From positions 496,001 through 560,000 of the forward strand of contig NZ_JAAGOY010000004.1 in NCBI RefSeq assembly GCF_010500215.1: a DNA stretch of 64,000 bases, read 5' to 3'. A model generated the notes under the pieces. It saw only the letters and a program-made list of their open reading frames with translations, had not been told where the DNA came from and ran no database searches. Below, in pieces: positions 1-5,328 of this stretch (position 1 is the stretch's first letter; each line of letters begins with the position of its first letter). The DNA comes from Aliiroseovarius sp. PrR006 (GTDB lineage: Bacteria > Pseudomonadota > Alphaproteobacteria > Rhodobacterales > Rhodobacteraceae). The position numbers and the translations under genes were made by a program.

Positions 1-107
1 CGGTTCATCCACGCCATCATCAGGACCTCTCCGGTCTCGTCATCCTGTGCGATGGCCGGGATCAGGCCCTTGTCATCAAACTTCAGCTGGCTGGCATCAA
101 ACTTCAT
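1..107 (-). CDS. hisI: Phosphoribosyl-AMP cyclohydrolase, 5' part only
   Basis: The first 35 codons of a leftward gene lie at the window edge. The translation begins [15 protein letters not shown] and continues through an [20 protein letters not shown] stretch, which is the characteristic N-terminus of HisI. The enzyme opens the purine ring of phosphoribosyl-AMP in histidine biosynthesis in the cytoplasm. The rest of the gene, including its metal-binding cysteines, lies outside the window. It is divergent from the Fe-S scaffold gene, with 70 bp between the two starts. Confidence 0.85.
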
Positions 108-177
108 GGCCCGTCCTTTTCTTTCCGGTACTGCGCTTCTATGTAGAGCGGATGAACGCCCGACGAAAGGCCCGGAC

Positions 178-621
178 ATGAGCGATACTGACCTGATCAA
201 GCTTTATTCCAAGCAGATCCTGTCCTTGGCGGCGTCCATCCCGCACCAAGCCCCACTGGATGCGCCTCAGGGCGAGGCCAAAGTGCGCTCGCCGCTCTGT
301 GGATCGACAGTGACCGCTGCCCTGACCCTTGAGGGCGAACAGATTTCAAGTTTCTCGCAAAACGTCAAAGCCTGCGCGCTGGGTCAGGCGTCCGCGTCGA
401 TCCTTGGTAAGGTCATCATCGGCTTGGATCGTCCAGCATTGGATCGTGGCCGTACCGAGCTGACCACAATGCTGAAAGACCAAGGCCCCGTCCCGGCGGC
501 CCCCTTCGACGGCTACGAGGTGCTTCAGCCCGCGCGGGAATTCAAAAACCGCCACGCGTCGATCCTGTTGGCCTTTAACGCGGCCATCGAAGCGTTCGAC
601 GACGCAAAAGCCAACGCATAA
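178..621 (+). CDS. Iron-sulfur cluster assembly scaffold protein (NifU/IscU-like)
   Basis: The 147-residue product starts [19 protein letters not shown]. It has single cysteines in the SPLCGSTVT and [13 protein letters not shown] contexts, which match the ligand positions of small NifU/IscU-type scaffolds in alphaproteobacteria. The inferred role is transient assembly and transfer of Fe-S clusters in the cytoplasm. The ATG at 178 was chosen because it begins the conserved region; an in-frame upstream extension to 52 would run into hisI on the other strand. The third canonical cysteine is not obvious, so the activity is less certain than the family call. Confidence 0.72.
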
Positions 622-655
622 AAAAACCGCCGCGCTCCTGGCAGGGAGGCGGCGG
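620..655 (-). terminator. Rho-independent terminator, leftward
   Basis: A stem with arms CCGCCGC and GCGGCGG, extended inward by CTCC/GGAG, is followed on the minus strand by six or more Ts. It lies at the very end of the Fe-S scaffold gene and points left, so it would end a leftward transcript coming from the small ORF at 823-945. Confidence 0.7.
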
Positions 656-822
656 AAGTGGTGCGGTTTGGGTCATCCAAATAGCGTCGGGAAGAGGCAA
701 ACATTCCGACAGGCAGGTGACGGGCGGTACTCCGTCGAAGGCATCGTGAAGGCTTCGGGACAGAAGGCTTCGTTGGGACATGATGCTGGATCAGACCATC
801 CGCAGGCAGAAACTGTATGGGA

Positions 823-945
823 TCAGATCATCCCGGGCAGATGCAGTGCACCCAGAAGCAATACAAGCAAGGAAATCGCCCCGAGCGTGTCCGAGACAAT
901 CGTGGTCGAGGACCGGGACAATGCGATTTTGACATCGTTCAACAT
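823..945 (-). CDS. 40-residue single-span membrane protein, probably SOS-induced
   Basis: This small leftward gene was read directly from the sequence. The product begins MLNDVKIALSRSSTTIVSDT and continues with a hydrophobic span (about residues 21-37, LGAISLLVLLLGALHLP) and ends GMI. A good ribosome binding site (AGGAG) stands 6 bases before the ATG at 945. The gene is bracketed by an array of GTTC repeats with a perfect GTTC-N7-GTTC upstream (1037-1051) and by a strong leftward terminator downstream (620-655), so it looks like a complete transcription unit. GTTC-N7-GTTC is the known LexA box of alphaproteobacteria. In Caulobacter an SOS-induced 29-residue inner-membrane peptide, SidA, blocks division; a comparable role here is inference, because sequence similarity to SidA could not be tested. 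Confidence 0.7.
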   Translation of the reverse strand: MLNDVKIALSRSSTTIVSDTLGAISLLVLLLGALHLPGMI

Positions 946-1026
946 GGGGTTACTCCTGCTCTCTGTCTGTGTGGGCAGCGTGTGTCACTGCGTCCGTGTT
1001 GCTATTTTGTTCGCATATTGAGAGCC

Positions 1027-1071
1027 GTTCTGTAAAGAACTTTTTAAGAACATTTGTGAACTTTTGAGAAC
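1027..1071 (-). promoter_or_regulatory. LexA-type box within a GTTC repeat array
   Basis: Reading the minus strand, GTTC occurs at 1071, 1061, 1051 and 1040, with gaps of 6, 6 and 7 bases, and GAAC follows at 1030-1027. The pair at 1051-1037 fits GTTC-N7-GTTC exactly, the operator recognised by LexA in Rhodobacter, Caulobacter and Sinorhizobium. It sits about 90 bp upstream of the 40-residue gene and just past the recG stop codon. The extra repeats at 10-base spacing could give cooperative or phased binding. Confidence 0.65.
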
Positions 1072-1078
1072 AAAGGTG

Positions 1079-3168
1079 CTAACCCACTGAAATCAAACGG
1101 ATCGCTTCATCCTGTCGCATGAGCCAAAGAAGAACACGCGCGGCGTGCCCCCGCGGCGTGCTTAGATCCGGGTCCTGCTGTAGCAACAGGCGCGCGTCTT
1201 TTTGCGCCACAGCCATCAACCCGGCCTGATGTTCCAAATCCGCGACCCAGAACCGCGGCAGGCCGGATTGCGCGGTGCCCAGAACATCCCCCGCCCCGCG
1301 CATTTCCAGATCAGCCTCAGAAATCACGAAGCCGTCTTCGGTATCACGCATCACCGACAGTCGCTTTTCACCGCCCTCTGTCAAAGGCGCCTGATACATC
1401 AACAAGCAGGTCGACGCCGCTTGCCCGCGCCCCACGCGTCCGCGCAATTGGTGCAGCTGCGCCAAACCGAAATGCTCGGCCCGTTCGATCACCATGATCG
1501 AGGCATTGGGAACGTCCACCCCCACCTCGATCACCGTGGTGGCGACCAGAAGTTTGGTCTTTCCTGCCACGAACTCCGCCATTGCAGCGTCTTTTTCACC
1601 GATAGGCATCTGACCATGCACCATGCCCACAACGCCTTCGCCCAGTTCGGCGCGTAGGTGCTTGAACCGTTCCTCGGCCGCGGTCATGTCCATGACCTCG
1701 CTTTCCTCGACCAAGGGGCAGACCCAATAGCATTGAGCCCCTTCCGCGATGGCCCCGCGAAGCCGTTCCACGACCTCATCCAGCCGTCCGGTGTTGATCA
1801 GCACTGTCTTGATCGGTTTGCGCCCCGGTGGTTTTTCGTCCAGCACCGAGACATCCATGTCGCCATATTGCGCTAGGGCCAAACTGCGCGGGATAGGTGT
1901 GGCGGTCATCACCAACACATCCGAGGCCGCGCCTTTCGCCCCCAACTCCATCCGCTGCGCCACACCAAAGCGGTGCTGTTCGTCCACGACGGCAAGACGA
2001 AGATCTTGAAATTCCACTTCTTTCTGGAACACCGCGTGCGTACCGACCAGAATGTGAATGTCACCAGCCTTGAGCGCCTCAAGTTTGCGCCGACGTTCGG
2101 CACCCTTGTCGCGCCCGGTCAGGATCTCGACCACGACGCCAGCTTCCTCGGCCAAGGGGCGCAGCCCTTCCAGATGCTGACGGGCCAGAATTTCCGTGGG
2201 GGCCATCATCACGCCCTGCCCGCCCGCCTCGACCGCAATGAGCAACGACAGCAGCGCGACCAAAGTCTTGCCCGCACCCACATCACCTTGCAGCAAGCGG
2301 TTCATGCGGGTGCCTGCGGCCATGTCGGCGGCGATCTCCTCGACCGCGCGGGATTGCGCGCCGGTGGGGGTATATGGAAGGGCGGACAGCACCTTGTCGC
2401 GCATAGTGCCGGTGCCGATACTGACCCGCCCCTTGCCACGGCGCACCGTCGCACGCGCCAATGCGAGCGTCAGTTGATGCGCAAAGAACTCGTCATAGGC
2501 CAACCGCCGCCGCGCTGGCGATTGCGGCGACAGGTCATCCGGACCGTCAGGTGTGTGGGCTGCACGTAATGCTTCGTGCCAGTCGGGCCAGTGCTCACGC
2601 TCTTTCAGCGCCGGATCAACCCATTCCTGCAACATCGGCAGGCGGGTCAGAATATCGCCCACGCCCTTGATCACCGTCTTGCCGGTCACGCCCGCTGTCA
2701 GACGATAAACAGGTTCAAAATCAGGGATCTGCCCAGCGTCACCCGGAGGCAGAATGAAATCAGGATGCACGATCTGCGCACGCCCGTCGAAATGTTCCAC
2801 CTTGCCCGAGATCACACGTTTCGCGCCCACTGGAAGCTGCTGTTCCAGCCAGCGCGTATTGGCATGAAAAAACACCAGTTCAAACGTGGTCAGAGGGTCC
2901 GAGACCTCGACCCTATAGGGCGCGTTGCGCGACCGTCCGGGACGAAGCGGGCCGACCTCGACCTCGACAGTCGCCATATCACCCGGCTGTACTTCGGTGA
3001 CCGACGCGCGGAATTTGCGGTCGATCCCCGCATGGGGCAACCAGAACAGCAGGTCACGCGGAAGGGTTATCCCAAGCGTTTCCATAGACTTAGCGGTCTT
3101 CGGCCCGATCCCACCCAGCGTTTCCAGCTTGGCGAACAGAGGGAACAGGATTTCGGGCCGGGTGGACA

Positions 3169-3169
<1 letters not shown>
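1079..3169 (-). CDS. recG: ATP-dependent DNA helicase RecG
   Basis: The 696-residue product is the usual RecG length. An N-terminal wedge region opens with a helix-hairpin-like LGGIGPKTAKSMETLGI. The Walker A motif is LLQGDVGAGKT and the DEQH motif is VVDEQHRFG. A typical helicase C domain contains QLRGRVGRG. RecG remodels stalled replication forks and branch-migrates Holliday junctions. The start codon overlaps the ligA stop by one base (TGATG on the minus strand), so ligA and recG are translationally coupled in one operon. The gene ends only a few bases from the LexA-type array, which controls the next gene rather than recG. Confidence 0.96.

Positions 3170-5328
<2,159 letters not shown>

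Follow-up and report, generated by a model that had tools for sequence, protein, structure and literature searches.

The window analysed here, a 64,000-nucleotide stretch of the genome of Aliiroseovarius sp. PrR006, contains a small unit downstream of recG that is very likely, on comparative sequence evidence, to be a LexA-repressed transcription unit of the Rhodobacteraceae in the wide sense, a qualification adopted because NCBI places Seohaeicola in the Roseobacteraceae and Rhodovulum in the Paracoccaceae. The unit comprises a 40-codon open reading frame (ORF), which is a real gene under purifying selection, and a 3′ untranslated region (UTR), which is a conserved structured RNA with a covarying closing stem. 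Neither this RNA nor a second LexA-like element (1012-998) was noted in the preliminary description of this locus. The promoter suggests that DNA damage induces the gene, and an inhibition of cell division resembling that exerted by SidA is plausible by analogy.

The layout originally proposed for the locus, namely a leftward 40-codon ORF equipped with a good ribosome binding site and placed between a GTTC-N7-GTTC box and a strong terminator, next to recG and ligA, was borne out in each of these respects (Table 1). The ORF is separated from recG by 133 nt, and approximately 200 nt follow it up to the end of the terminator. Read 5′ to 3′, the spacer consists of GTTCTCAAAA GTTCACAAAT GTTCTTAAAAA GTTC TTTACA, a further 18 nt, GAACAAAATAGCAAC and the ribosome binding site, with GTTC start-to-start steps of 10, 10 and 11. 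At all 139 loci that were read, the ORF is preceded by the C-terminal end of a co-directional recG. On the far side of the unit, the window carries a convergent gene (178-621, plus strand) that by eye encodes a NifU/SufU-like iron-sulfur scaffold; its stop codon (619-621) extends into the T-run of the terminator described above.

Table 1. Positions in the window of the features of the recG-linked unit and its upstream neighbours
Feature	Position	Strand	Basis or remark
ligA	3169-5328	(-)	identity by eye
recG	1079..3169	(-)	upstream co-directional gene
Two further GTTC half-sites (GTTC-N6-GTTC-N6-)	1052..1071	(-)	GTTC at 1071-1068 and 1061-1058
Putative LexA-type operator 1, GTTCTTAAAAAGTTC, GTTC-N7-GTTC	1037..1051	(-)	conservation; recA/lexA matrix
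Possible -35 element TTTACA	1031..1036	(-)	inferred; TTGACA in L261 and L262; no clear -10
Operator-like element 2, GAAC-N7-CAAC	998..1012	(-)	family conservation; resembles family recA box
Ribosome binding site AGCAGGAG	953..960	(-)	AGGAG at 957-953, 7 nt before ATG
ORF, predicted single-span membrane protein, 40 codons	945..823	(-)	start ATG; MLNDVKIALSRSSTTIVSDTLGAISLLVLLLGALHLPGMI
Structured 3′ UTR	620..822	(-)	closing stem and terminator; inner hairpins from single-sequence folds
Intrinsic terminator stem-loop	627..655	(-)	T-run 626-620; ~170 nt 3′ of ORF

The distribution of the encoded protein was examined at several depths. Used as a single query, it matched 33 of 61 sampled genomes, these being its own, all 20 congeners, 11 of 16 other family members and one distant genome, the last of which (E 0.65) was discounted as spurious. 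At E<=0.01, a profile of 19 rows matched 344 of the 394 genomes from the family, nearly all of them from different genera. Searched across the class, the profile matched 6 of 385 genomes, comprising that of the window, four others from its family and a single match that was both weak and partial; the latter was the sole match among the 380 class genomes outside the family, and since it spans residues 1-28 inside a 495-residue frame (E 2.2e-4) it was also taken as spurious. The 139 loci referred to throughout were drawn from the first search (29), from wider searches (30) and from named genomes (80), the last including Ruegeria, Sulfitobacter, Phaeobacter, Rhodovulum, Defluviimonas, Actibacterium and others. 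They contain repeats of one genome, as with L023, which lies inside L146 (Seohaeicola saemankumensis), and represent 127 distinct promoters; rows L018, with a truncated ORF, and L113, which was spurious, were dropped.

The preliminary description had made its case depend in part on conservation of the ORF with a bias towards synonymous substitution, and this sequence-based part stood. Among 98 distinct ORFs of exactly 40 codons, 23 disjoint close pairs gave a pN/pS of 0.135, with pN lower than pS in all 23, compared with values of 1.18 and 4.16 for the control frames; differences at codon positions 1, 2 and 3 numbered 66, 25 and 187, respectively. The single membrane span proposed at the same time is likewise supported, in that residues 21-40 are devoid of charge in every one of the 98 orthologues and AlphaFold2 returned one helix spanning residues 2-39 (pLDDT 81.9, pTM 0.43). 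From the sequences and this model we infer a small protein inserted in the inner membrane, probably with its N-terminus inside. The 19-row alignment shows no variation at D19, G22, L30, L34 and P37 and very little at R11 and T15, and none of the 19 members has a match in Pfam or NCBIfam.

The putative operator presents a different problem, in that a 15-mer of this type is uninformative in any one sequence. GTTC-N7-GTTC occurs four times in the window, where 2.58 occurrences are expected, and 120 times genome-wide compared with 106 for the reversed pattern. The box alone was therefore rejected as evidence and, since it is not above chance in one sequence, conservation was used as the deciding test. 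The box is present in 138 of the 139 orthologous promoters, with N6 spacing in the exception (L189), whereas among 1600 control windows, each of 130 nt, 3 contained it, as did 83 of 20000 sequences obtained by mononucleotide shuffling of the spacer in the window; this degree of conservation is far beyond chance. The triple arrangement GTTC-N6-GTTC-N7-GTTC is retained at 129 of 139 loci, and GAAC-N7-CAAC follows the box at 132 of the 136 where anchoring was possible, the interval separating the last GTTC from GAACAA being 23 nt at 117 of 138 loci and 24 nt, as in the window, at 17 of 138. Within the genus, the triple block of the window or a close variant is found as one copy in each of 12 of 13 genomes, the thirteenth, in which it was not seen, being 56 percent complete.

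With regard to the identity of the cognate regulator, the preliminary description regarded the box as the LexA operator of alphaproteobacteria, and the comparative evidence supports this assignment. Both lexA and recA are present in the window's genome and the promoters of both carry a box of the GTTC-N7-GTTC type, as do 27 of 27 lexA loci in the family (L249, which is partial, and L250 and L251, which are weaker, being excluded) and 24 of 30 recA loci; the six recA loci without a perfect box indicate that it is not universal even there. A matrix constructed from 62 recA/lexA sites, themselves scoring 11.5-28.1 bits with a median of 23.2, assigns 18.6 bits to the box upstream of the small gene, the top score in the window, with the next at 11.1. 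Element 2 is also similar to the family recA site (GAACAAGAGGCGAACAAA compared with GAACAAAGNGGCAACAAA). The SOS box of Rhodobacter sphaeroides is reportedly GTTC-N7-GTTC. We place the probability that LexA controls the candidate operator at roughly 90%. The main text of a network study of the same species (PMC4344238) contains no GTTC motif. LexA sites have been predicted in silico in Dinoroseobacter (PMC6473078); recG does not occur in the main text, and the unit described here is not mentioned in the part consulted.

Certain features of the promoter nonetheless count against LexA, as does the failure of a consensus scan of positions 1-3000 to find any promoter. A precedes the second GTTC in 126 of the 127 distinct promoters, whereas at the LexA sites of recA and lexA this position is T in 53 of 62 cases and A in 4 of the 62; scored on its 15-base core, the window's box comes no higher than 35th among the 100 matches listed of 120 in the genome; and LexA offers no explanation for the N6-spaced GTTC repeats. 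These same features, together with the occurrence of three or four GTTC motifs at steps of 10, 10 and 11 bases, would suit some other regulator that recognises direct GTTC repeats, for example a member of the OmpR family, proteins of which often bind direct repeats at steps of about 10 bases (PMC9275681), in which event the unit would be an envelope-stress or cell-cycle gene rather than an SOS gene. We consider this very unlikely, principally on account of loci in which the protein itself has diverged (described below). The sole such regulator compared, CenR of Rhodobacter sphaeroides, uses TGA-N8-TGA (PMC9275681, from the part consulted), and was rejected as a binder of the GTTC repeats because of this mismatch.

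Twenty of the 50 family genomes that were negative with the profile were examined, the end of recG being readable in 14 and unreadable in 6. Five of the 20 match GTTC-N7-GTTCTTTAC, three of them (L254, L255 and L256) directly after recG, where a diverged one-span ORF of 39-43 residues is found, and two away from recG. When recG was searched for in the remaining 17, 11 ends were readable, and seven of these (L257, L259-L263 and L267) are followed by a perfect box and a one-span ORF. A perfect box accompanied by a diverged ORF, the latter assigned by position and hydropathy only, is thus found at 10 of 14 readable loci. Seven of the ten have the T preferred by LexA (L254, L255, one of two boxes in L259, L261, L262, L263 and L267), while A is found in L256 and L260 and C in L257. 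Matrix scores were 22.9 for L261, 24.9 for L262, 22.6 for L263, 19.3 for L259 and 18.1 for L260; in L257 and L267 the box occurs in the GAAC sense only and was left unscored by the one-strand scan. The N6 pair, conversely, occurs in only two of the ten (L257 and L259), and the second site is a perfect GAAC-N7-GAAC in L255, L256, L259 and L263. Since the strict N7 pair persists where the protein sequence has drifted and the extra repeats are mostly missing, LexA fits better than a regulator of 10-base repeats. In L257 the 100 nt that follow recG contain a pair of perfect GAAC-N7-GAAC boxes, ahead of the diverged ORF. At the other four readable loci (L258, L264, L265 and L266) a complete recG is followed by no recognisable unit, and these genomes are possible natural knockouts.

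Under LexA control, the unit would be kept off in undamaged cells by LexA bound to the box beside the -35 region and probably also to the second, downstream site. DNA damage would then trigger, via RecA, the cleavage of LexA, with release of the promoter. The resultant transcript would direct synthesis of the 40-residue inner-membrane peptide, comprising one helix, which would most likely pause division or envelope growth by binding a divisome component in the membrane, in the manner of SidA in Caulobacter, and the folded 3′ UTR might either stabilise the message or be released as a regulatory RNA. We regard the chances that the peptide is an SOS checkpoint effector at the membrane as evenly balanced, and those of division being its target, which is argued by analogy, as slightly short of even. 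Counting against a checkpoint role, a gene that most genera retain as part of their core set could have another purpose. An SOS-boxed membrane peptide beside recG, widely kept in roseobacters, Rhodovulum, Defluviimonas and their kin, would constitute a concrete candidate for a damage-induced pause. Among the literature titles surveyed, covering openly accessible papers without their supplements, none concerns a recG-linked SOS peptide unit in this family.

Among the closest known analogues is SidA of Caulobacter crescentus, although that protein has 29 residues as opposed to the 40 here and acts through FtsW, and we know of no structured 3′ RNA associated with sidA. YneA and its kin may be likened to the peptide, again by analogy, as SOS-induced division inhibitors, but YneA-type inhibitors are larger and have an extracytoplasmic part. 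The resemblance to SidA lies in its being an alphaproteobacterial, SOS-controlled and very small inner-membrane protein (PMC4211646, which treats both SidA and DidA); yneA, divS, chiZ and sidA are among the SOS division inhibitors described outside the gamma-proteobacteria (PMC4211646).

The main rival to a checkpoint role is that the peptide behaves in the manner of TisB or DinQ of Escherichia coli, depolarising or otherwise modulating the inner membrane, with effects on dormancy or nucleoid state, without binding the divisome and perhaps with an antisense antitoxin. The LexA box of E. coli differs from GTTC-N7-GTTC, but the combination of a short, hydrophobic, SOS-controlled single-span peptide with LexA-type operators is common to both, DinQ in particular having one span and a promoter that overlaps two LexA operators (PMC3567139). 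We judge this unlikely, given that retention in 344 of 394 genomes, a single fixed place at 139 of 139 loci, an invariant D19 and nearly invariant R11 and T15 are more reminiscent of a core protein that binds a partner than of a mobile toxin. Antisense RNA control is also known for DinQ, whereas a consensus scan of positions 1-3000 found no sigma-70-type promoter, antisense or otherwise, on either strand, a result that says little since the scan, which does not cover every type of promoter, missed the gene's own promoter too.

Attention was also given to the 3′ UTR. A terminator rule delimited the UTR in all but 2 of 139 loci, and the 137 UTRs contain on average 4.2 CTGYC motifs, compared with 0.88 in mononucleotide shuffles. 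Folded without their terminators, the 119 distinct UTRs in the 130-230 nt length range proved more stable than dinucleotide shuffles, with a mean z of -2.50 and 66 percent of values below -2. The window's own UTR has a z of -1.7 for the core and -2.58 with the terminator included, while a fold lacking the far arm (141 nt) gave 0.21. Common to the individual folds is a long-range closing stem that encloses hairpins, and the bases of the CTGYC motifs are unpaired more often than other C/T bases (0.70 compared with 0.51; higher in 107 of 119 UTRs).

The closing stem was evaluated further by exchanging arms between UTRs. Of 112 usable UTRs, 41 had dissimilar 5′ arms, and for these the mean energy was -22.8 kcal/mol with the native arm and -15.6 kcal/mol with swapped arms, with none of 5000 permutations reaching the native mean; the UTR's own arm was the best partner in 11 of 41 cases and outperformed the median partner in 39 of them. 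For a narrower set of 22, 97.7 percent of the stem positions form standard pairs, falling to 22-51 percent when the arms are slid relative to each other. This stem contains 16 double-changed cells compared with 5.1 in shuffled alignments (0/500) and four pairs with double changes compared with 1.9 (6/500), whereas the number of further pair types, at 8 compared with 7.3 (151/500), is not above shuffles. The consensus from this group comprises the closing stem and terminator only, the inner hairpins resting on single-sequence folds, and a MAFFT alignment of 26 3′ UTRs revealed nothing but the terminator, because the stems differ between genera.

Searches of Rfam 15 returned no match at the gathering score in 10 loci, and the best of three weak matches to positions 600-1100 of the window scored 13.3 bits compared with a gathering score of 50. 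The element would represent an RNA family absent from Rfam 15, one that occurs in the majority of the genomes sampled from a large bacterial family and that would connect the SOS response with post-transcriptional control. In the CcsR/CcaF1 system of Rhodobacter sphaeroides, a DUF1127 small protein and structured RNAs are carried on one stress transcript. The unit described here shares this arrangement of small protein and structured RNA, but the protein is a different one, and neither Pfam (19 of 19 members) nor Rfam (10 loci) yielded a match. Of published Rhodobacterales structured RNAs, HRC-8-4, near ccoP/ccoG, and uORFC-8-2, before cysS, are different elements, although the present RNA may be among the other motifs of the same paper (PMC8632094).

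Whether the RNA acts in trans seems to us an even question. The excess stability of the 119 distinct UTRs, the compensated closing stem and the mostly unpaired CUGYC motifs could be taken to mean that the main product is a damage-induced regulatory RNA, with the peptide secondary. This is improbable, since the ORF itself is under strong purifying selection, and diverged loci such as L254 and L260 keep an ORF while their RNA, by eye, looks weaker. A two-product SOS checkpoint common to an entire bacterial family, in which one LexA-controlled transcript would provide both a division-halting peptide and a multi-hairpin RNA whose CUGYC motifs, numbering about four, sequester a protein or base-pair with numerous mRNAs, the two products cooperating once DNA is damaged, is a doubtful but somewhat better prospect.

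Several other boxes were noticed in the course of the analysis. In family recA promoters (e.g. L204, L195 and L081), a degenerate GTTC-N7-G(A/G)TC is visible by eye upstream of GAAC-N7-GAAC in many of the 24 loci, such that recA, like the small gene, seems to be preceded by a pair of LexA-like elements that face opposite ways. In the window's own genome (G000), GTTC-N7-GTTC lies shortly upstream of uvrA (L064, C4:605293) and of an imuB-like gene (L069, C4:1059749), both identified by eye, and of an unnamed ORF of 100 residues (L062, C4:2169), and all three are likely to be SOS genes of this organism.
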